In this document: one piece after another, positions 95-10,182 of the stretch | Numbering within the stretch: the stretch's first letter is position 1 | Layout: each line of letters starts with the position of its first letter | DNA from: Candidatus Fermentibacterota bacterium | Lineage (GTDB): Bacteria; JAFGKV01 | Reading direction: 5' to 3' | DNA: 10,292 nt | Assembly (NCBI GenBank): GCA_030620115.1 | Contig: JAUXFG010000140.1 | Span: forward strand, 1 to 10,292 | Made by a program: the position numbers and the translations under genes | Notes under the pieces: model-generated | What the model saw: the letters and a program-made list of their open reading frames with translations, nothing else | The model's database searches: none | Told to the model about the DNA's origin: nothing

Positions 95-1285
95 CTAATC
101 CGCCTGCCTCCTGAGGAAAGAAGGTATCTCGTGATCAACGGGATTCTGGCGCCTCACAAACGTCGGCACGGCGTGCTCGGCGCCGTCACGCTCCCTGATC
201 CTTGTCTCCCTATCTCGTGAGCCGTATTCATAGCCCTGATCATCACCACGATGTCGATGCCCGGGAAAAATGGCCACACTCCGATCACGATCCACCGGGA
301 GCAGTCGCTCCTGATCAGCACCGAACCCGGTCGCAATGACCGTCACTCTGAGAATGCCGTCGAGGGTCTCATCCTTTCCAACACCCATATACATGTCTGC
401 TTCGCCTCCGGCAGCCTCCTGGATCACGCTGCAGCAACTATTGACCTCGTGAAGCGTGAGACTGTTGTCGCCTTCGACGTGTACGAGCACCGCCCTGGCG
501 CCTTCTATGGAGGTATCCTCCAGCAGATGGCTGGATATCGCCTGGTCAGCGGCAGACTGTGCGCGGTCCTCACCGGATGCTTCACCGATTCCCATCAGCG
601 CGTCACCGCCTTTGGACATGACGGAGCATACATCCTTGAAATCCCTGTTGATCATGCCCACCTTGCTCACGAGATCAACAATCCCTCTCGTGGCATTGAG
701 GAGGATCTTGTCTCCTTCAAACAGCGCCTCTTCCAGGGGAGTATCCTCAGGTACCACGCTGAGGAGTCGCTCGTTGGGGATGGCGATCAACGTGTTGACA
801 TGTTTCCGAAGCTCTTCGATCCCTGCTTCCGCGTTTCTCCTCCTACCCGGTCCCTCGAACGTGAATGGTTTGGTGACCACCGCCACGGTGAGGGCTTTCT
901 GTTCCCTCGCCAACCGCGCAACAACAGGGGCGGCGCCAGTTCCCGTACCACCGCCCATGCCGGCGGAGACAAATACCATATCGGCGCCCTCGAGCAGACC
1001 CCGGACGTCTTCCTCATTCTCCTCGATGGATCGACGGCCGATCTCGGGATCGCCTCCCGATCCTTCCCCATTGGTGGTTTCCACACCAATCTGAAGCTTC
1101 GTCGGAGCAAGGGACTTGTAGAGATCTTGGCAATCGGTGTTCAGCACAGAGAATTCAACACCTCGTAAATTCGCCGAGATCATCCGGTTCACGGCGTTGC
1201 CGCCGGCCCCTCCAATACCCATGACTTTGATTCTTGCGACGGCTCCTGCGCCATCATCGGGCAAAGGCAGTATGCGAACATCCAT
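95..1285 (-). CDS. ftsZ: Cell division protein FtsZ (tubulin-like GTPase)
   Basis: FtsZ polymerises with GTP at midcell into the Z-ring that recruits the divisome. Seen in the 396-aa product: the N-terminal nucleotide loop GIGGAGGNAVNRM (residues 23-35), the tubulin signature GGGTGTGAAP (111-120), the PFTFEG segment (140-145), and the T7 catalytic loop GMINRDFKDV (210-219), which keeps Asn213, Asp215 and Asp218. A charged linker (about 325-370) precedes the tail. The tail carries a standard C-terminal peptide, IPSFLRRQAD (387-396), and 14 residues upstream a second similar motif, VPTFVRRQ (373-380). The ATG start is set by a perfect AGGAGG (1294-1299) eight bases upstream. The stop is TAG. 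It is last in the cluster and the only gene separated from its upstream partner (101 bp after ftsA), which suggests independent translation and perhaps its own promoter. Length is normal for the family. Identification is firm. Confidence 0.99.
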   Translation of the reverse strand: MDVRILPLPDDGAGAVARIKVMGIGGAGGNAVNRMISANLRGVEFSVLNTDCQDLYKSLAPTKLQIGVETTNGEGSGGDPEIGRRSIEENEEDVRGLLEGADMVFVSAGMGGGTGTGAAPVVARLAREQKALTVAVVTKPFTFEGPGRRRNAEAGIEELRKHVNTLIAIPNERLLSVVPEDTPLEEALFEGDKILLNATRGIVDLVSKVGMINRDFKDVCSVMSKGGDALMGIGEASGEDRAQSAADQAISSHLLEDTSIEGARAVLVHVEGDNSLTLHEVNSCCSVIQEAAGGEADMYMGVGKDETLDGILRVTVIATGFGADQERLLPVDRDRSVAIFPGHRHRGDDQGYEYGSRDRETRIRERDGAEHAVPTFVRRQNPVDHEIPSFLRRQAD

Positions 1286-1293
1286 CGTATGAC

Positions 1294-1299
1294 CCTCCT
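1294..1299 (-). promoter_or_regulatory. Strong Shine-Dalgarno of ftsZ
   Basis: AGGAGG on the minus strand, eight bases before the ftsZ ATG. It is the best ribosome-binding site in the cluster and contrasts with the coupled, weak-site starts upstream, fitting the need for FtsZ to be made in excess over FtsA. Confidence 0.85.
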
Positions 1300-1354
1300 T
1301 CTATTCGACGGTGAACCGTGAAATGCTGCTTTGTGTGAGATTCTGTTCTATCCA

Positions 1355-1390
1355 TAGCCCGAGCCCGGGCACATGAGAAATGCGGGCTAA
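1355..1390. repeat. Copy 3 of the dispersed palindromic repeat, at the ftsA stop
   Basis: TGAGAAATGCGGGCTAA (1374-1390) matches the arm of the 10124 palindrome at 14 of 17 positions. Its CTA (1387-1389) is the TAG stop of ftsA. A 7-bp inverted repeat, TAGCCCG (1355-1361) with CGGGCTA (1383-1389), encloses a 21-base loop that contains the self-complementary GCCCGGGC (1363-1370). It fills most of the 3' part of the gap between ftsA and ftsZ. No T-run follows, so termination is unlikely. Confidence 0.6.
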
Positions 1391-2622
1391 CCAAGATCAT
1401 TCCATCGCTCCCTTATCCACGCCCATATCCTGCCGGGCGTCGAGCCTGTTCGCCGCACCGTACGACCGGAGACTGCTGCCCGAAGGAGCAGCCCCATTCC
1501 GGTGGCATGTTCCGGTGAGAGCACAATGCCCCGATCTCCGCGTATGTCGCGGACCGTACCGCACCGCGTGCGTACCCTGAAAAATCGCTCTGCCAACTCC
1601 TCCAAACCCTTGATGCGCGAGGTGCCGCCCGTGAGCACGACTCCCCCCGCCAATGGCTCTCTGAATCTTTTTGCCTCCAATGCCCTTGCAGCCGCTTCCA
1701 GGATCTCCTCCAGTCGCGCTCGTATCACATCGCTGACAAGAGTGGCCGGAACATCATGAACTGCTCCCCCACCAATGGGTGTCACCTCGATGCTTTCAAG
1801 CCCTTCGGCTGCTGCCGCTCCGGAGAGCCCCAAGGAGATCTTGAGATTCTCCGCCACGTGCATCGGCGCACCCAGAACCTTTGCCAGATCTGTAGTAACC
1901 GCTTCTCCCCCCATGCTGATGGGAGCCGTCGCCCGGAGCGCTCCACGCTGGTAGATGGCCAAATCACTGGTCCCCCCACCAAGATCCAGCACTGCGGTGC
2001 CCAGGAGCTTCTCATCAGAATCCAGAACCGCCTCAGCCGAAGCCACCGGTTCGAGCACAAGCTCCGTTGCCTCTGCCCCTGCAAGCCGTACACATCGCCT
2101 CAGGTTGTTCACTGCGGCCACGGAAGCAGTGATCACAAGCGCATAAAAATCCAGCTTGATACCCCACATCCCAATAGGATCAGTGGTGGAGATGCGTCCG
2201 TCGATGACGTATTCCTGCGGCTCTACGTGCAGCGCGATCTCATCCTCCGAGAGCCCTGCTCGCGCGCGATCGCGGAGCTTCGATACATCACCTGCCTGTA
2301 TCTCCCTGCCTCTCTCGCCGAACCCTTGCGATATGTTCGCCTCTTTGCTATTCACATCGGTGCCGGCAATGCCAACCACCACGGATCGAATAGTGGTCCC
2401 GCTTGACTTCTCAGCCTCTGCCAAGCTCTCCCGTATGGAATCCGAAGCATCTCTCACGTTGCTTACTGCCCCGCCTCGCACCCCGTCTGACGGCACCACA
2501 CCAGCGCCAATGAGCTCCACCACGCCCTCATCGGTTTGCATGCCCACAAACGATGCCACCTTGGAGGTACCGATATCCAGCGCAGCAAAGGTCTCCTTAC
2601 TGTGGGAGGAGAAACTCCTCAT
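1387..2622 (-). CDS. ftsA: Cell division protein FtsA (actin-like membrane tether)
   Basis: FtsA is an actin-fold ATPase that anchors FtsZ to the inner membrane and signals to the FtsQLBWI complex. Seen in the 411-aa product: phosphate-1 motif DIGTSK (16-21), phosphate-2 motif DLGGGTSD (213-220), adenosine motif TGGTS (331-335), and a terminal amphipathic helix GRIWAWIRERWNDLG (397-411) matching the family's membrane-targeting sequence. I chose the ATG at 2620-2622 because it overlaps the ftsQ TGA as ATGA. The frame stays open upstream to 2670, but the extra 16 residues lie inside ftsQ and do not look like FtsA. The TAG stop lies inside a copy of the dispersed palindromic repeat described separately, immediately after the amphipathic helix, so the protein is not truncated. 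Confidence 0.97.
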   Translation of the reverse strand: MRSFSSHSKETFAALDIGTSKVASFVGMQTDEGVVELIGAGVVPSDGVRGGAVSNVRDASDSIRESLAEAEKSSGTTIRSVVVGIAGTDVNSKEANISQGFGERGREIQAGDVSKLRDRARAGLSEDEIALHVEPQEYVIDGRISTTDPIGMWGIKLDFYALVITASVAAVNNLRRCVRLAGAEATELVLEPVASAEAVLDSDEKLLGTAVLDLGGGTSDLAIYQRGALRATAPISMGGEAVTTDLAKVLGAPMHVAENLKISLGLSGAAAAEGLESIEVTPIGGGAVHDVPATLVSDVIRARLEEILEAAARALEAKRFREPLAGGVVLTGGTSRIKGLEELAERFFRVRTRCGTVRDIRGDRGIVLSPEHATGMGLLLRAAVSGRTVRRTGSTPGRIWAWIRERWNDLG

Positions 2623-3317
2623 GTTTCCCGCCCCTCGGAGGAGAGTCTGACAATGATCTGATTGCTCCATCGCAAATCCGCATACGAAGGTGTTTCGCCC
2701 CGATGCCGTGCATCAGCCAATACATTACGCAAAGAAGCGAGACGATCTTCGAGACCGGGATCATCCGGGCAGGGGAGCACGAGTTGAAGCGGCGGTGACA
2801 CGAGCCTCACACGGAGTGTGCCCCGGTTCGGAGGACCAAGCACCCGGGCCCCTACCAGCATGTCGGCGCCATTGGCGGCAATGCGCTGAAGAAGTGCGAG
2901 CGCTGAAAGCCAATGTGTATCTTGTGGAGCCCAACTTTGGAGAAAGGGCAAACTCCGGGGAACCCGAATTCCGGTATGGCAGGCGCCCTCCATGTCGATG
3001 CCCACAGGCCCATGATATTCCGCCCACGCCACCAACTCCCGCTCTTGCACAATGACCTCTATCGTCGCAAGACCACGGCGCCGCGCCTTGGCATGGAGGA
3101 TGAGGGGATGCTGCAATACTGTTTCCTCGATCTCCCGACAGGTTAGGAGGCCGAAACTCAAGCCGGCAAACGGGCTGATGAGTTCGGTGATGACGGCCTC
3201 TTCAACAACGCTTGTGCCGCTGACTTCCACCTCTCTGACGTGGAAACCAAGAGGCCCGGGATCCCACCACAGATAGCTGCCAAGACAGAAGAACCCCATG
3301 AGTACGGCCGCTTTCAT
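2619..3317 (-). CDS. ftsQ: Cell division protein FtsQ/DivIB
   Basis: FtsQ is a bitopic membrane protein that scaffolds FtsL/FtsB and links early and late division proteins. Seen in the 232-aa product: one N-terminal transmembrane segment (about residues 3-18) with almost no cytoplasmic tail, then a periplasmic POTRA-like domain (about 25-98, beginning FHVREVEVSG), then the FtsQ beta domain ending in YADLRWSNQIIVR (212-224), a pattern typical of the family. The missing cytoplasmic tail is shorter than usual. A second in-frame ATG at residue 7 would cut into the membrane segment, so I keep the first. The start overlaps the murB stop as ATGA and the stop overlaps the ftsA start as ATGA, implying translational coupling in the order murB-ftsQ-ftsA. 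No ddl gene lies between murB and ftsQ. Confidence 0.92.
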   Translation of the reverse strand: MKAAVLMGFFCLGSYLWWDPGPLGFHVREVEVSGTSVVEEAVITELISPFAGLSFGLLTCREIEETVLQHPLILHAKARRRGLATIEVIVQERELVAWAEYHGPVGIDMEGACHTGIRVPRSLPFLQSWAPQDTHWLSALALLQRIAANGADMLVGARVLGPPNRGTLRVRLVSPPLQLVLPCPDDPGLEDRLASLRNVLADARHRGETPSYADLRWSNQIIVRLSSEGRET

Positions 3318-4231
3318 ACTCCTGCCGTCCTCACAAGAACAATCTCGGTTTCCAGTAGAATGCCGGTAGATTCGTGGATCCGTTTTCTGGTGAATTCGAT
3401 GAGCCGCATCACGTCCTTGCTTGTGGCCGGCCCGTCCAACACAATCCAGTTTGCGTGTGTATCCGAAACCACGGCGCCGCCGACGCGGGCGCCTTTGAGG
3501 CCTGCCTCATCCATAAGCTTCCCCGCACTTTGTCCCGCAGGATTCTTGAACACACAACCCGCCGATGGCTCTCCACTGGGCTGTTTTTCCGACCTCTCTT
3601 TGAGCGCGGCGCGAGCACGGGCGCGAAGCATGTCCGGGGCATCGGGTTCCATGGCCCACTCCGCCGCACATACCACCGATCCAGAGGGGATCCCGCCCTG
3701 ACGATATCCGTGATCCAACTCGTCCGCGGCAATCCAGCGAATTGTCCCATCTCGATCCACGAGTTCGACTCTCCGCAAGGGAGTGAACACATCATGCCCC
3801 TGGACCCCCGCATTACCTGCAATGGCCCCTCCGATGGTTCCTGGTATGCCCGCCAATTCGGTGAGGCCGGCCAAACCCGACCGGATCGAGCACGTGACAA
3901 TCCTGGCCAACGGTACCCCTGCTTCAGCACGAATGACTCTGTCCGACACCGAGTATCGCTGCAAACGAATGGTGGAGATGATGACGCCGTCGAATCCGGA
4001 GTCAGGAAAGAGCAGATTGGTCCCTCCTCCCATCACCATCCACTGGATGCCACTGGCCTCCGTGCCTTTCACCACAGCCGCCAAGGCGGTAAGAGTCCCC
4101 GGTTCAACCCATAATCGCGAAGGCCCTCCGAGGCGAAAGCTCGTATGAAGAGAGAGCGGTTCAAGACGTTTGATCACCGTATCGGCCACAGATCTCAAGG
4201 AATCTTCCAACAGCCGCAGTGATGGGCTCAT
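3314..4231 (-). CDS. murB: UDP-N-acetylmuramate dehydrogenase MurB
   Basis: MurB is a cytoplasmic flavoenzyme that reduces UDP-GlcNAc-enolpyruvate to UDP-MurNAc with NADPH. Seen in the 305-aa product: FAD-binding segments VMGGGTNLLF (66-75) and GLTELAGIPGTIGGAIAGNAG (about 122-142), the YR pair with the active-site Arg177, PSAGCVFKNP (222-231), and the terminal LLETEI (292-297) containing the expected catalytic glutamate. The proton-donor position in the GxVFKNP motif is Cys226 rather than the more common Ser, a variant known in the family. The compact form without extra C-terminal insertions resembles type II MurB. The start overlaps the ftsW stop as ATGA. It is the only precursor-synthesis enzyme left in the cluster: murG and murC are missing on the ftsW side and ddl on the ftsQ side. 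Confidence 0.97.
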   Translation of the reverse strand: MSPSLRLLEDSLRSVADTVIKRLEPLSLHTSFRLGGPSRLWVEPGTLTALAAVVKGTEASGIQWMVMGGGTNLLFPDSGFDGVIISTIRLQRYSVSDRVIRAEAGVPLARIVTCSIRSGLAGLTELAGIPGTIGGAIAGNAGVQGHDVFTPLRRVELVDRDGTIRWIAADELDHGYRQGGIPSGSVVCAAEWAMEPDAPDMLRARARAALKERSEKQPSGEPSAGCVFKNPAGQSAGKLMDEAGLKGARVGGAVVSDTHANWIVLDGPATSKDVMRLIEFTRKRIHESTGILLETEIVLVRTAGV

Positions 4232-5370
4232 GGGTTGCTCCGATGTACTGAATCCAGCATTCCAATGGAAACAAGATTGACCATGGTGGCAGCGCCCCCA
4301 TATGAGAGAAACGGCAGGCTCTGCCCTGTGGTCGGCACAAGAGCCGTGGTGACGCCTGCGTTGATCATGGCAAAAATGGTGATGTTCAAGGTGAGCCCAG
4401 CGGCCAAGAGGAACCTGAAGCGATCAGATGAGGCCAGTGCGATCCGGCCGCCCCGGTACAGGATCACCCCGAAGAGAAGCACCACCAGCGAAGTTCCCAG
4501 GAATCCCATCTCTTCGCCCACGACAGCCAGGGGATAGTCCGTATGTATTTCGGGAAGAAACCCGTATTTCTGCCGACCCTGCCCGATGCCTGCCCCGATC
4601 AACCATCCGTGCCCAAGCCCGATGAGGCTCTCTCGCGGGTGATACGGAAGAGACATGGGGTCAAGCTTCCAGGGAAGCCCATAGCCATTGACACGCTTCG
4701 AACGATATTCAGAGCCCATGGTGAGGAGGGTCATCACCAGGAGCCCTGAGAGCACGATGCCAAAGAGCGCAACCTTACGGACTCCTGCGATGAAGAGCAG
4801 GAGCAAAGCCACTGTCGCAAGGCCCAGACTGGTACTGAATGAGGGTTGAAAGAGGAGGAGCAAGACCGCCAGGCCGAGCATTCCCAAGGGGATGACGAAT
4901 GTCTTGCCCTTCAAAGGCTTGCGTTGGTGAATCGACAGGAAGTGAGCCAGCCACAGGATGAACGACACCTTAACGAACTCGCCAGGCATGAACGAGAAAG
5001 AGCCGAAGCAGAGAGCCCGGTAGGCGCCGTTCTTCTCATCGCATACGAGATGCAGATCGACTCCCAAGCGGCGCAATGCAGGTGGCAGCAAAAGGAGGAA
5101 CGAAATGATAAGCATCCACTTCGCGTACCGTTGCCAGCGCTCAGGGTCGGTCTTTGCCGCCACGAGCAGTCCAAGGCAGCCGGCAAGCACCCGGGTAATG
5201 TGCTTTCGAAACAAAAGCGAGATCGGCAAGCCATTGAATGACACTTTCGCCGAGCTTGTACTGGCCAACTCCACAATGCCCAGGGCCACCAGAACCGCCA
5301 CGGAGATCAAGAGTACGATATCAGGCCGAGGCGGTAATGATGGCCGCGGTCTATGCCTTCGGGGCGCCAT
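4228..5370 (-). CDS. ftsW: FtsW, SEDS-family septal peptidoglycan glycosyltransferase
   Basis: FtsW polymerises lipid II into septal glycan strands together with FtsI. Seen in the 380-aa product: about ten hydrophobic segments, the extracellular loop LPEIHTDYPLAVVGEE with the essential-type Asp278 (HTD at 276-278), and PFLSYGGAATM (353-363). Several usually invariant positions differ: QPSE is MPGE (128-131) and the QPD-type motif is QPSFS (175-179). I chose the ATG at 5370, which overlaps the end of ftsI by 20 bp. A GTG at 5385 is in frame and would add five residues, and neither start has a strong Shine-Dalgarno. FtsW is preferred over RodA because of context: it directly follows ftsI and precedes murB. 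The usual murE-murF-mraY-murD block before it is absent. Confidence 0.93.
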   Translation of the reverse strand: MAPRRHRPRPSLPPRPDIVLLISVAVLVALGIVELASTSSAKVSFNGLPISLLFRKHITRVLAGCLGLLVAAKTDPERWQRYAKWMLIISFLLLLPPALRRLGVDLHLVCDEKNGAYRALCFGSFSFMPGEFVKVSFILWLAHFLSIHQRKPLKGKTFVIPLGMLGLAVLLLLFQPSFSTSLGLATVALLLLFIAGVRKVALFGIVLSGLLVMTLLTMGSEYRSKRVNGYGLPWKLDPMSLPYHPRESLIGLGHGWLIGAGIGQGRQKYGFLPEIHTDYPLAVVGEEMGFLGTSLVVLLFGVILYRGGRIALASSDRFRFLLAAGLTLNITIFAMINAGVTTALVPTTGQSLPFLSYGGAATMVNLVSIGMLDSVHRSNP

Positions 5371-6961
5371 GAGGTCTCTCTGCACGGGCGACAGTGGTTT
5401 CGACTCGGGGTGCGGTAGACAGCATCGCCGCGAGTTCAGGATAGAGCGATCCTCCGGAAGCCACCAGGAGATGATCGGTCATCCTACGGAACGCCGGCGC
5501 ACAGAGTTGGCCGGCATAATAGATCTCTTGTGGCTCGTCCACGATGATGAGCATGGCCGCCACGGGATTATCTGCGGGGAAAAATCCCACAAAGGTCGAA
5601 ACATAGGCTCCCGGCAGATAGCCACCGCCTCCGGGAGCAGCCTTTTGGGCGGTGCCGGTTTTTCCTGCCACATCCAAGAGCGGGTGCTTGGCCTGCTTCC
5701 CCGTGCCGTGGTCCACCACCCCTCGCAAGAGCTCGGTGGCTATACGAGCAGTCTTTGGCGAGAGGGCCTGCCTGACCACGACGGGGCTTGCCTCGCGGCA
5801 GTCATCAAGCCGCCGCACCAAAAACGGTTGCACAAGCTCCCCTCGATTGGCAACACAGCAATACGCGTTGAGCAGCTGCACTGCGGTAACCATAACTTCA
5901 TGTCCCATGGACATGGCTGAGAGTGAAACAGATCGGCTGGGCCGAATGAGAAAACCATCCGTCTCCGCGGGAAGATCGACACCCGCCGACTGCCCGAATC
6001 CTAATGCCCATGCCGTGTTGAAGAAACGATCCGCACCAACTTGCTGGCTCAATTTCGCTGCAGCGATGTTCGAGCTTTGGGCAATGGCTTCGTAATAGGG
6101 GACTTTGCCCATGGGATGCGTATCGTGCCAGTTTCTTCCGTCGCTGTGCCATACGCCGTTCTCGCAGTCCGTGGTGGTCTGGGCGGAGACGACTTGGTGT
6201 TGGAGTGCGGCGGTCATCACCACGAGCTTGAACGAAGAACCCGGTTCGAATTGATAGCTCCACAGCTGGTTCGCGGAAGAGCTTCCGGGATCGGGACGCG
6301 AGGGATCAAACGGCGGCACCACCGCGGCGGCAAGGATTTCTCCTGTGGAGGGCTTCATCAGAAGCACACCTGCCCATTTGGCGCTCGACTGAACCACAAG
6401 GTGCCGCGCTTCCATCTGGGCGAGCCCTTGATAGATGGCATCAAGCGTGAGCCGAAGATCTTCGCCCGGTGTGGGGCGCTCCTCCACGATCACAGGCTCA
6501 TAGGGCGAAACGCCCCCATTCCCCACCCTAGGGAGAACGACCATTCCGTCCCGCCCACGAAGCAAGGCGTCGAATCGTCTCTCGACTCCTTCGAGCCCCA
6601 TGCCCTTATAGTTCACAAACCCAAGGACACGGCCCACAAGGGGTCCCATGGGGAAGACCCTCCGATAGAGCCGACCACCCGGAGGAGCGCATCGTTTCGT
6701 GTGGGTTGAGAGTGCCACGCTACAGGCTAACGGCAGCCCGTGTCGATCAACCACGGTACCCCTCCGTGCTTCGACGACCTCGATCTTTCTCCAATGCGCA
6801 ACGGCGAGCCGCGAGAGCATTCTGCTTTCCACGATCTGGATCTGAAAGAACCGAGCCTCCAGAACGAGCCAGCCAAGAATACAGCAAGCCATCACCAGCA
6901 CGGCCCGCCTCTTGGCCATCCCATCAATTCCCACGGGATGCGGATCCTTGAATGGTCTCAT
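5351..6961 (-). CDS. ftsI: FtsI/PBP3, class B penicillin-binding protein (septal transpeptidase)
   Basis: FtsI cross-links septal peptidoglycan and partners with FtsW. Seen in the 536-aa product: an N-terminal transmembrane helix (about 19-35) after MAKRR, the RGT motif of the pedestal (67-69), and all three transpeptidase motifs: SSFK with nucleophile Ser242 (242-245), SSN (296-298) and KTGT (434-437). No PASTA domains follow, so it is FtsI-like rather than SpoVD-like. The span from CSVAL (80-84) to RVFPMG (101-106) is only about 16 residues, where E. coli PBP3 has roughly 75-80, so the pedestal lacks a subdomain. The start is uncertain. ATG 6961 has GGAG ten bases upstream and overlaps ftsL. 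ATG 6919, just past the ftsL stop, would remove 14 residues before the membrane helix. The frame is open further upstream to 7054. Confidence 0.95.
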   Translation of the reverse strand: MRPFKDPHPVGIDGMAKRRAVLVMACCILGWLVLEARFFQIQIVESRMLSRLAVAHWRKIEVVEARRGTVVDRHGLPLACSVALSTHTKRCAPPGGRLYRRVFPMGPLVGRVLGFVNYKGMGLEGVERRFDALLRGRDGMVVLPRVGNGGVSPYEPVIVEERPTPGEDLRLTLDAIYQGLAQMEARHLVVQSSAKWAGVLLMKPSTGEILAAAVVPPFDPSRPDPGSSSANQLWSYQFEPGSSFKLVVMTAALQHQVVSAQTTTDCENGVWHSDGRNWHDTHPMGKVPYYEAIAQSSNIAAAKLSQQVGADRFFNTAWALGFGQSAGVDLPAETDGFLIRPSRSVSLSAMSMGHEVMVTAVQLLNAYCCVANRGELVQPFLVRRLDDCREASPVVVRQALSPKTARIATELLRGVVDHGTGKQAKHPLLDVAGKTGTAQKAAPGGGGYLPGAYVSTFVGFFPADNPVAAMLIIVDEPQEIYYAGQLCAPAFRRMTDHLLVASGGSLYPELAAMLSTAPRVETTVARAERPHGAPKA

Positions 6962-7376
6962 TGACGTCGGTCTCCGCAATGCGCGTACCACGGAAACCAT
7001 GGGATGGACTATCCATGGATATGCCCCGCCATGCGGCAGGAAGCCTGTAGGCAAGACGCCGAGTCAGCACGCCGCCGGACCAGGGTACCGAACCGTCAAA
7101 CATGATGAAACGTAGCGACAAGCTCGATGGTGGGAAAAAACAAGAGTCTTGGAGCACACCATAGATACGATCCGGGCTGCACAGCTTGGACAGAAGAAGG
7201 CGATACTCCAGATTCACTACGGAAAGACTGTCGCGCAGCCCATGGAGCTGCTCGGCTTCTAGCTCTGTCTCCCTCATGAGATTCGCTCGAGTGACCACCG
7301 CAATACCCAGCGAAACCACCACTACGGCTAATACTCCCACGTACACAAATTCCCCAAACAGCCGATTAGCCTGCAT
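6924..7376 (-). CDS. ftsL: FtsL-like bitopic division protein
   Basis: FtsL is a small bitopic protein that pairs with FtsB through a periplasmic coiled coil and activates FtsWI. The 150-aa product shows a short cytoplasmic N-terminus, one transmembrane helix (about 9-29), a heptad-like coiled coil (about 33-66) and an LCSPDRI segment (65-71) like the D-P/S-x-R-I ending seen in many FtsL proteins. Assignment rests on this architecture plus position between rsmH and ftsI, because FtsL sequences are poorly conserved. The start has GGGGAG (7381-7386) four bases upstream and overlaps the end of rsmH by 11 bp. The last roughly 75 residues have no FtsL counterpart I recognise and extend over the ftsI start. 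They may be a genuine extra periplasmic domain. Confidence 0.8.
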   Translation of the reverse strand: MQANRLFGEFVYVGVLAVVVVSLGIAVVTRANLMRETELEAEQLHGLRDSLSVVNLEYRLLLSKLCSPDRIYGVLQDSCFFPPSSLSLRFIMFDGSVPWSGGVLTRRLAYRLPAAWRGISMDSPSHGFRGTRIAETDVNETIQGSASRGN

Positions 7377-8277
7377 TTTTCTCCCCGCCCCAAAGCCTGG
7401 CGCTCCGCGCTCTTGGATTCACAGAGACCTCTTCGGTGGAAGCATATTTTCCGAACGGACGCAGAAACCGGAGCCTCTCACGGGCTCCGCATCCACACAC
7501 AGGAAGCCCAGGCGGACAAATGCACATACCGCTTTCCCGTTTGAGGAAGCGTCGAACGCGCCGCTCCTCTCCTGAGTGGTAGGTGAGTACCCCGACGCGT
7601 CCACCATCCCGGAGAAGGTCGACCGCCGCGGCAAGACCGCGCGAAAGTTCCTCTTGCTCACGATTCACCACCATACGCAGAGCCTGGAAAATCTTGGCGA
7701 GATTCTTGATCCTCCGCCGCGGTGGGAAACATTTTTCTGTGGCGCGGACAAGGCCCAGCGTGGAACTGGGGGGTCCGGCACGCAGAATGGCGCGTGCAAC
7801 ACGCCTGGGCGTGGGCACATCTCCTAGTTCAGAGAGCCATTGAGAAAGCTGTTGTTCAGTGGCATCGCGAAGCACGCGAAAGGCGGGTGTGCCCCTGGAT
7901 CGATCCATGCGCATGTCCAGCGGACCGTCATCCAGGTAAGAGAAACCCCGCGCCTTATCCTCGATCTGGAGCCGACTGGTGCCCAAATCGAATAGAACAG
8001 CGTCGACGTTTTCCACAGCCAAGCTGCCAAGCTCGGAGAAATTCGCGTGGACGAGATGGAGGTGCCCGCTCCATTCCTTCAAGCGGGCCCGTGCACGTGA
8101 GAGTGCGGCGGGATCTCGATCTACGCCCACGACATCTCCCCCAGCTTTGAGCCAGGCCAACGCATGCCCCCCATCGCCAAGCGTGGCGTCAACCAGTAAT
8201 CGTCCTGAACCCGGCCGAAGAAGATCAAGCACTTCTTCGGCCATGACCGGTTGATGCAGAGGCACACGGGCTTCCAC
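7366..8277 (-). CDS. rsmH: 16S rRNA (cytosine1402-N4)-methyltransferase RsmH (MraW)
   Basis: RsmH methylates N4 of C1402 in 16S rRNA using S-adenosylmethionine and is the usual second gene of dcw clusters. Seen in the 303-aa product: HQPVM near the N-terminus (8-12), SAM motif DATLGDGGH (30-38), GVDRDP (51-56), FDLGTS (96-101), GPLDMRMD (118-125), HSGEER (234-239, family consensus HSLEDR) and NPRARSA (287-293). I chose the GTG at 8277, 17 bp after the STAS gene stop, because it keeps the HQPVM motif and gives the normal length. The frame is open up to 8433, but that 52-residue extension is low-complexity and lies over the STAS gene, so it looks like a shadow. The Shine-Dalgarno for the GTG is weak, so coupling to the upstream gene is likely. 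Confidence 0.95.
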   Translation of the reverse strand: MEARVPLHQPVMAEEVLDLLRPGSGRLLVDATLGDGGHALAWLKAGGDVVGVDRDPAALSRARARLKEWSGHLHLVHANFSELGSLAVENVDAVLFDLGTSRLQIEDKARGFSYLDDGPLDMRMDRSRGTPAFRVLRDATEQQLSQWLSELGDVPTPRRVARAILRAGPPSSTLGLVRATEKCFPPRRRIKNLAKIFQALRMVVNREQEELSRGLAAAVDLLRDGGRVGVLTYHSGEERRVRRFLKRESGMCICPPGLPVCGCGARERLRFLRPFGKYASTEEVSVNPRARSARLWGGEKNAG

Positions 8278-8294
8278 ACCGTTGTCCGAGCTGC

Positions 8295-8612
8295 CTATTC
8301 CTGAGCTTTCAGAGCTTCCCGCGGCGTTGAAAAAAGCTTGAGGGTTCCCTCTTCGTCCCGGTGCTTGAGCATGCTCTTCACCGGCGGACGCGCCCCCGCC
8401 AGCCTCAGCTCCGAACCATATGCCCTCATCCATCGAGCCCTCCTGAGCAGAGGAGAAACTGTCTTGGGCGAGAGCTTCTTCAGGGATCTCATATCGAGGA
8501 GTATCATGGGAAAGGACTCGAATACTCTCTCTACGATGGTTCTATCGATTTCGAGGTACGTCGCTGGATCGAGTACACCATCAAGTCTGATTACCTGACT
8601 CGCAAGATTCAC
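8295..8612 (-). CDS. STAS-domain protein (anti-sigma factor antagonist-like), unknown role
   Basis: The 105-aa product resembles a single STAS domain of the SpoIIAA/anti-anti-sigma type. It has an opening strand ending in RLDGVLD (9-15), a helix, the buried strand MILLDMRSL (36-44), a helix with an L-R-x-A-R pattern (56-60), AYGSELRLAGARPPV (64-78), and a final LFSTPREAL (93-101) like the family's F-x-S-x-E-E-A-L ending. Where active antagonists have a D-S-x-G phosphorylation site, this protein has LSPKT (47-51). The phosphoacceptor Ser aligns with Pro49, though Ser48 is adjacent. It starts with GTG in a GTGA overlap with the mraZ stop and has a purine-rich Shine-Dalgarno. No kinase or sigma factor gene is visible nearby. 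The gene is not a standard dcw member, and its function in division is unknown. Fold confidence is good, function is not assigned. Confidence 0.82.
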   Translation of the reverse strand: MNLASQVIRLDGVLDPATYLEIDRTIVERVFESFPMILLDMRSLKKLSPKTVSPLLRRARWMRAYGSELRLAGARPPVKSMLKHRDEEGTLKLFSTPREALKAQE

Positions 8613-9157
8613 TTCTCCGTCTCCCCCTCTCCCCGCACACGGGGAAGTACACTCTCCTCTGCGCAGGAGAGATCCAAGAATAGATCATCAACTGAAAGAT
8701 CTTTGGAGCCCTGGTACTCACCTCGCCCTTGTTGTGTCCAGATCTCCACATGATCGAGGTTTCCGATGAGAAGCACCTTCCCCAGAAGCCCCACACCCTC
8801 GCGAATGTCGGATTTGATGGGCAACCGACCATTTTGGTCCATGGTGACCATGTGTGTGTGCTCGAGAATACGGCGATGCCTCTCGCGCAGACCGGGGCTA
8901 TCGCCCAGCTCACGTTCTCTCCGCATACGATCCCGGATCCGTTCCCATTCCCCGCTGGGGTACACACCCACGCATCTCTCCGGCCATAGAATGGTGATAA
9001 GGTATCGCTCCTGTTCTCCGGGCATGATCTTGCGCCACTCGGAAGGGAAGCTTATCCTTCCCTTGCTGTCGATGAGATGCGTGTAGTTCCCCGTGTAGAA
9101 ACCAGAGGCTTGGGAATCGGCGGCACTCAACATATCCCTCATTTCATGGGATGCCAT
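8609..9157 (-). CDS. mraZ: Transcriptional regulator MraZ
   Basis: MraZ is a double SpoVT/AbrB-fold DNA-binding protein that regulates its own dcw operon. Seen in the 182-aa product: first repeat with YTGNYTHLIDSKGRISFP (21-38, DxKGR at 30-34), second repeat with MDQNGRLPI (106-114, DxxGR at 107-111), and an IEIW-like VEIW (137-140). At 182 residues it is longer than the usual 140-155, with about 18 extra residues before the first repeat and about 30 after the second. The start is uncertain. ATG 9157 lies close to the predicted transcription start and has no clear Shine-Dalgarno. ATGs at 9142 and 9133 and a TTG at 9130 are in frame, and a GAGGGA lies just upstream of the last two. The 3' end overlaps the STAS gene as GTGA. 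Confidence 0.95.
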   Translation of the reverse strand: MASHEMRDMLSAADSQASGFYTGNYTHLIDSKGRISFPSEWRKIMPGEQERYLITILWPERCVGVYPSGEWERIRDRMRRERELGDSPGLRERHRRILEHTHMVTMDQNGRLPIKSDIREGVGLLGKVLLIGNLDHVEIWTQQGRGEYQGSKDLSVDDLFLDLSCAEESVLPRVRGEGETEK

Positions 9158-9182: not shown

Positions 9183-9210
9183 ATTTTACGAAATCTGACG
9201 CCATAGTCAA
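9183..9210 (-). promoter_or_regulatory. Predicted sigma70-type promoter for mraZ and the dcw operon
   Basis: On the minus strand TTGACT (9205-9210, five of six consensus bases) is followed after 16 bp by TAAAAT (9183-9188, five of six). Transcription should begin near 9176, only about 19 bases before the mraZ ATG at 9157. The downstream genes overlap, so this could drive everything to ftsA and perhaps ftsZ. Position and motif quality support it; the start site itself is inferred. Confidence 0.75.
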
Positions 9211-9287: not shown

Positions 9288-9331
9288 ATGAGAAGTTCGG
9301 GTTAGGCTATTGGGTTTGTTTCTCTTCTCAT
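9288..9331. repeat. Copy 2 of the dispersed palindromic repeat, spanning the phosphodiesterase stop
   Basis: TGAGAAGTTCGGGTTAG (9289-9305) matches the arm of the 10124 palindrome at 15 of 17 positions. Its TTA (9302-9304) is the TAA stop of the phosphodiesterase on the minus strand. ATGAGAAG (9288-9295) also pairs perfectly with CTTCTCAT (9324-9331), giving an 8-bp inverted repeat around the stop codon, but the full second arm of the element is not present. Confidence 0.6.
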
Positions 9332-10090
9332 TTCTTGCTTCCATCCAGTCCGACAAAGGGCACGACACGTTTCGCCGGAATCATTTGTCAGCAGAGCATC
9401 ACAGTGAAGAGCTCGATAGAGAAGCAGTCGAGAGTCTGGTTCAGGGTCGAGGGGGCAGACCAGCTGACCTCGCCTGTGCGCAATCCAGACGAAGAATGGA
9501 TTTAAGAGAAGCATAGGCCACAAAGACCCAAGGAGCTCAGCCCCTGAATGCGGCCAGACATCGAACACCGTGATCCTGCCGATGGGGGTATCACGCGCCA
9601 CAGAACGAAGCGCCTGGAGACGAGGAAACGAGAAGGAGATGACAATCGTACGGTTTCGAACACCGAGTTTGTCCAGTTCGTCGACCAATTGACGAGCAAC
9701 TTCAGGTTGAAGGAATCGATCGTCTTTCAGCTCCAACGCCAAGCCGATATCATTGGGGAGAATCTCAGCGACATCACCAAGCGTGGGAATTTGCTCTGAT
9801 TCGAACTCCCTCCTGCCGCACGAAGCACTGAGCCGTTTGATTTCGTCGAGCCGCATATCGGCGATTGCTCCGGATCCATTGGTTGTTCGATCCACTGTAG
9901 GGTCATGAATGCAGACAAAAACCCCGTCCGCGGTTTGATGGATGTCCGTTTCGAGAATATCCGCTCCGTCGTCTAGTGCGCGTTTGAATGCCGCAAGGGT
10001 GTTTTCAGGGCATACCACTTTGTTGCCACGGTGCGCCAGGACGTATGGCTTGTGCCGCCAAGTAAGGGTGAGCTCAGATTTTGTCGTCAC
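9302..10090 (-). CDS. Glycerophosphodiester phosphodiesterase family protein
   Basis: This family hydrolyses glycerophosphodiesters to sn-glycerol 3-phosphate and an alcohol in a metal-dependent TIM barrel. Seen in the 262-aa product: LAHRG with the catalytic His20-Arg21, CPENTLAAF (27-35), LETD (46-49) with the metal ligands Glu47 and Asp49, CIHDPTVDRTTNG (60-72) with His62, IPTL (101-104), LALELK (117-122) with the expected Glu120, and the C-terminal CDALLTN typical of the barrel end. No signal peptide is seen, so it is probably cytoplasmic like UgpQ. The GTG at 10090 is chosen because AGGGAGG (10097-10103) lies six bases upstream. The in-frame ATG at 10111 would put that site inside the gene and has none of its own. 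The substrate cannot be told from sequence. The TAA stop lies inside a copy of the palindromic repeat. A promoter separates it from mraZ, so it need not be part of the dcw operon. Confidence 0.94.
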   Translation of the reverse strand: MTTKSELTLTWRHKPYVLAHRGNKVVCPENTLAAFKRALDDGADILETDIHQTADGVFVCIHDPTVDRTTNGSGAIADMRLDEIKRLSASCGRREFESEQIPTLGDVAEILPNDIGLALELKDDRFLQPEVARQLVDELDKLGVRNRTIVISFSFPRLQALRSVARDTPIGRITVFDVWPHSGAELLGSLWPMLLLNPFFVWIAHRRGQLVCPLDPEPDSRLLLYRALHCDALLTNDSGETCRALCRTGWKQEMRRETNPIA

Positions 10091-10123
10091 ACGAGACCTC
10101 CCTGGATTCATTTTGAGACATGG

Positions 10124-10182
10124 CTAGCCCGGACTTCTCACCATTCCCGCGAGACATAGGGCTGGCGAGAAGTCCGAGCTAG
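10124..10182. repeat. Long imperfect palindrome, copy 1 of a dispersed repeat
   Basis: CTAGCCCGGACTTCTC (10124-10139) is the reverse complement of GAGAAGTCCGAGCTAG (10167-10182) except at one position. In minus-strand RNA that position is a G-U pair, and a further U-G and two G-C pairs extend the stem to about 19 bp with a 21-base loop. No T-run follows on either strand, so it is not a classic intrinsic terminator. It sits 34 bp upstream of the phosphodiesterase GTG start. The arm sequence recurs at 9289-9305 and 1374-1390. It could be a REP-like or MITE-like element, or an RNA regulatory hairpin. Confidence 0.8.

Follow-up and report, generated by a model that had tools for sequence, protein, structure and literature searches.

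A dcw cluster of Candidatus Fermentibacterota in which murB is the only remaining precursor gene

A genome of the Candidatus Fermentibacterota, a phylum that the NCBI taxonomy places within the FCB group, carries a dcw cluster in which the genes mraZ-STAS-rsmH-ftsL-ftsI-ftsW-murB-ftsQ-ftsA-ftsZ follow each other on one strand and murB is the only gene of precursor synthesis. The window analysed in this work is a stretch of 10,292 bp that constitutes one entire contig (C121) of the genome G000 (4.1 Mb, 98% complete, 296 contigs). It very probably contains a genuine, old and fully eroded dcw cluster, that is, an operon for the septal machine whose precursors come from separate units. This reading is based on the direct observation of the gene content, order and joints of the cluster, of the missing genes elsewhere in the genome, of a second genus with the same arrangement, and of intermediates in other lineages.

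The dcw cluster has been described as an ancestral group of 17 genes subject to parallel reduction, and in the FBC superphylum murB and ddlB have been lost from it (PMC8871954). As in those reduced clusters, single genes were lost or relocated from an inherited cluster and the remaining order was kept; in contrast to the FBC case, the window retains murB alone of the precursor genes. It is therefore a further variant, at the extreme end, of a known erosion and not a new kind of system. Together with its part-way relatives, a lineage that has lost all but murB provides a natural series in which to ask what genes depend on being clustered and what genes can be dispersed.

Gene content, joints and flanks of the operon

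The genes of the window were identified with Pfam, which matched all the genes of the operon with the exception of ftsL (Table 1). A previous sequence-only reading of this DNA had proposed the same ten-gene order, and Pfam together with gene position supports it; the span that it gave, 4228-9157, covers mraZ to ftsW only, and the operon as described extends from 95 to 9157. It had also proposed that the blocks murE-murF-mraY-murD, murG-murC and ddl are absent from the cluster, and in fact the window contains none of the Mur ligase genes and neither mraY, murG nor ddl. The backbone that defines a dcw cluster is complete and on one strand, as in Escherichia coli (NC_000913.3, 89634-106456), where it reads mraZ-rsmH-ftsL-ftsI...ftsW...ftsQ-ftsA-ftsZ and also has tight joints. 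Compared with the E. coli cluster, that of the window lacks murE, murF, mraY, murD, murG, murC and ddl and has murB and a STAS gene, so that of the precursor genes expected in the ftsI-ftsW interval and after ftsW only murB is found. The remaining set is almost purely made of divisome genes, plus mraZ, STAS and rsmH.

Table 1. Features of the window and loci encoding MurG with a HEAT-repeat tail (positions in the window unless a locus is given)
Feature	Position	Strand	Evidence and remarks
ftsZ	95..1285	-	Pfam Tubulin 9.7e-48 and FtsZ_C 6.4e-26; single copy in genome
ftsA	1387..2622	-	Pfam FtsA 6.9e-29; ATG within ATGA overlap with ftsQ, longest frame from 2670
ftsQ	2619..3317	-	Pfam POTRA_1 2.5e-8
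murB	3314..4231	-	Pfam MurB_C 2.8e-29
ftsW	4228..5370	-	Pfam FTSW_RODA_SPOVE 4.8e-77; proposed start ATG 5370, longest frame from GTG 5385
ftsI	5351..6919	-	Pfam Transpeptidase 7.1e-63; proposed start ATG 6919, longest frame from 7054
ftsL	6924..7376	-	Called from position, size and an identity of 36% with its G001 counterpart
rsmH	7366..8277	-	Pfam Methyltransf_5 7.8e-74; proposed start GTG 8277, longest frame from ATG 8433
STAS-domain gene	8295..8612	-	Mraz-rsmH interval; Pfam STAS 22.7 bits, at the cut-off of 22.6
mraZ	8609..9157	-	Pfam MraZ 1.9e-12; 39% identity to G001
Sigma-70-like promoter, putative	9183..9210	-	TTGACT-16-TAAAAT, just upstream of mraZ; 10/12 consensus matches
MurG-HEAT, G000 (C7)	L079:1288-3294
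MurG-HEAT	L080:6182-8266
MurG-HEAT	L081:1653-3740
MurG-HEAT	L205, L206, L207, L208, L209, L211, L212

The joints had been described as seamless, with ATGA or 20-bp overlaps, and reading the sequence verified it: the overlap between ftsI and ftsW amounts to 20 bp, given the proposed start of ftsW, and ATGA overlaps are present at ftsW/murB, murB/ftsQ and ftsQ/ftsA. The overlap between mraZ and the STAS gene is 4 bp long (GTGA). From this anatomy, a single transcript would most likely run from the sigma-70-like site before mraZ through ftsZ, and the translation of the overlapping genes is likely to be coupled. The counts of promoter-like and terminator-like sequences in the window were not above those of shuffled sequences; hence, position is the sole argument for the proposed promoter. 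A search of the window against Rfam gave no match, and only weak, chance-like pairs of repeats were found at the gene joints. The gap between ftsA and ftsZ (1286-1386, 101 bp) is the widest of the operon and might be the site of a separate ftsZ promoter; a promoter scan of this gap found none.

Upstream of the operon there is a gene that resembles those for glycerophosphodiester phosphodiesterase (9302-10111), preceded by a 20-bp inverted repeat (90%) at 10124-10182. The genes upstream of the dcw cluster of the sister genus are different.

A STAS-like gene fills the mraZ-rsmH slot in eight other distant loci (e.g. L149, L164 and L171; weak in L184), and it is missing from this slot in the sister genus. 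This distribution suggests that the STAS gene is an old accessory gene of the dcw cluster that was lost in that genus.

A sister genus and the dispersed precursor genes

The phylum was sampled with three genomes (G000, G001 and G002) that belong to one family and two genera, and a dcw cluster was assembled in two of them, G000 and G001. In G001, an independent assembly from the other genus, contig C107 carries mraZ-rsmH-ftsL-ftsI-ftsW-murB-ftsQ-ftsA-ftsZ, the same order without STAS; its joints at ftsW/murB, murB/ftsQ and ftsQ/ftsA are also ATGA, and ftsI and ftsW overlap as well. The identity between the proteins of the two clusters is 34-58%, and given that the order is common to both genera at this identity, the arrangement must be older than the split between them. 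The stripped order is, in consequence, a trait of the lineage and not a one-off. G002 (82% complete) gave no match for MurB or FtsZ, and its FtsW-family match is RodA-like only, with none of the dcw type; being incomplete and devoid of these matches, this genome cannot confirm the order of the cluster.

These data bear on a trivial explanation, namely that the window was misassembled or recently lost these genes in this MAG, which is fragmented and of which the window makes up one short contig in full. We rejected it on the evidence of G001, whose cluster has this order and equivalent overlaps at so low a protein identity, and consider its probability negligible; the earlier statement that the arrangement reflects neither an assembly gap nor a recent deletion is therefore upheld.

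In G001 there is a second, divergent rsmH away from the dcw cluster (L043:2840-4060), and an rsmH fragment of the same divergent type is located at a contig end in G002 (L044:1-453).

The genes absent from the cluster were searched in the genome family by family; NCBIfam was used to check murD, murE and murF, whereas murC and mpl were named from sequence and mutual similarity. The sequence-only reading had suggested that the precursor genes moved elsewhere, and all of them (murG, mraY, murE, murD, murF, murC and ddl) were indeed found at other places in G000. An adjoining pair murE-murD is present on C257 and on C148 of G001; murF is alone on C250, beside an engB-like gene, and on C146 in G001; murC ends a similar run of glycosyltransferase-like genes on C70 and on C183 of G001; and a second MurC-type ligase, probably mpl, is encoded on C169 and on C25 of G001. 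The ddl gene is on C280. On C7 there is a murG-mraY pair, preceded upstream by murJ and a cca-like gene, and such a pair recurs on C282 of G001 and on C380 of G002. The two pairs and the context of murC are thus conserved in both genera.

The possibility of a single second mur cluster, also raised earlier, was rejected: the missing genes were located, but in several small units, the pairs murG-mraY and murE-murD, with murF, murC and ddl apart. Loss of peptidoglycan synthesis was likewise rejected, given that the genome has the full set of ligase genes as well as mraY, murG and ddl. On C24/C307, separate from the precursor units, there is a RodA-PBP2 pair close to an MreB-like gene. murB is single-copy in G000 and G001 and occupies the same position of the cluster in both, which fits either a relic or a selected link.

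With the absent genes located elsewhere in the same genome and the arrangement inherited, as seen in G001, we propose that in the ancestor of the family the Mur ligases, mraY, murG and ddl would have left the cluster in several steps, whose order we infer. What stayed would be a tight unit from mraZ to ftsZ dedicated to the septal machine, comprising the FtsL-FtsI-FtsW synthase, FtsQ, FtsA and FtsZ, along with MraZ/STAS/RsmH and murB. Lipid II would be supplied by the separate small units to both the division operon and the elongation operon (MreB-like gene, PBP2-RodA).

Partially reduced clusters in other lineages

The order of the window was compared with that of 93 rsmH-centred loci, obtained from 55 other genomes, each from a different family, and 38 contigs; this sample is broad but small. 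Annotation of the loci relied on HMMs whose seeds came from E. coli MG1655 and G000 and which were extended by iteration. A gene could be called in the 1.6 kb that follow ftsI in 75 of the 93 loci; it was murE in 56 of these and murF in the other 19. In the remaining loci, ftsI was not within 4 kb of rsmH (12), the sequence ended (4) or nothing was called (2). None of the 93 showed ftsW directly after ftsI, an adjacency that among the sampled loci is confined to the window and G001. The earlier reading would, on its own terms, be refuted if this order were standard for the phylum; this holds in part, as the order is common to the sister genus, but it appears in no other lineage sampled.

Partially reduced clusters (INTERMEDIATES) were identified in four genomes. 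In G009 an otherwise full dcw cluster lacks mraY and murG; in G114 the cluster lacks mraY, murG and murD; in G081 murF stands alone between ftsI and ftsW, and ftsQ comes right after ftsW; in G053 murF is kept in the same interval, and murB is also kept. The clusters of G081 and G053 resemble the window in that ftsI and ftsW are almost adjacent and a murG-mraY pair encoding a MurG with HEAT repeats (see below) lies outside dcw; they differ from it in the murF still present in the ftsI-ftsW interval. In all four genomes murG and mraY are together outside the dcw cluster. This series reads as a stepwise erosion, with the family of the window at its far end. On a quick core-gene tree with weak deep nodes the intermediate genomes formed no single clade and no clean ladder, and for this reason some of the gene losses were probably independent between lineages.

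A different explanation is that selection split the division genes from the precursor genes, freeing the regulation of division from precursor supply, with murB as a deliberate supply link. The synthase pairs of division and elongation each occupy a separate locus free of mur genes, and the retention of a single murB in one conserved position across the two genera would agree with this idea; nonetheless, the genes that left the cluster are dispersed and the leftovers differ in other lineages, such as murF in G081 and G053, which looks more like piecemeal loss than like a designed split. We consider the selective explanation unlikely.

A MurG with a HEAT-repeat tail

The MurG encoded on C7 of G000 is a protein of 668 aa that includes both GT28 domains (PF03033, 7.5e-28; PF04101, 1.4e-25) and a C-terminal region of HEAT repeats (1.3e-11) of approximately 270 residues; its NCBIfam murG score, 221.8 bits, is below the cut-off of 250.25. 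A MurG match was obtained in 143 of the 145 genomes searched. Outside the phylum, 13 of the genomes with long MurG frames were inspected, and seven of these 13 have a HEAT-type tail; with the three members of the phylum, MurG-HEAT is present in at least ten genomes (Table 1). The ten tails align and share motifs, e.g. F-RRN, D-Y-E-R, and L-TS--F-P-F near the end, and the MurG cores of these proteins form one clade (support 100/98). As far as the assemblies show, MurG-HEAT is encoded outside dcw in the ten genomes, and mraY follows directly in nine of them; the exception is G083, where the annotation gave no mraY in the vicinity.

In the literature searched we found no description of a MurG with HEAT repeats, and the co-mentions, judged from their titles, concern unrelated proteins. 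In Bordetella, MurG has been proposed as a scaffold for the Mur ligases (PMC6420597), and this proposal suggests a testable role for the HEAT arm. It is conceivable, though we regard it as improbable, that where dcw disperses the arm would act as a docking scaffold for the scattered Mur ligases at the membrane beside MraY, replacing clustering. The arm would then be a built-in and dedicated version of the role proposed for MurG elsewhere, and would provide at the protein level a benefit that is commonly ascribed to gene clustering. MurG-HEAT is thus a concrete protein with which to ask whether physical scaffolding can replace gene clustering.

The distribution of MurG-HEAT also bears on an alternative to simple erosion, in which horizontally acquired or duplicated copies, chiefly the murG(HEAT)-mraY unit, displaced the native dcw copies, which then decayed. 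The single clade of MurG-HEAT cores contrasts with the scattered position of its hosts on the core-gene tree, as displacement would predict; yet that tree was built by a quick method and is weak at its deep nodes, nothing indicates displacement for murC, murD, murE and murF, and the mraY genes of these genomes were not recovered as a clade in a quick tree. Displacement is a possibility to which we give somewhat more weight than to selection, and less than to the stepwise erosion of an inherited cluster. A case that would fit it is G095, which has, besides a MurG-HEAT-mraY unit elsewhere, a dcw cluster (L221:6906-8021 for its murG) from which mraY is gone and whose murG is very divergent; this divergent murG is possibly a displaced copy.
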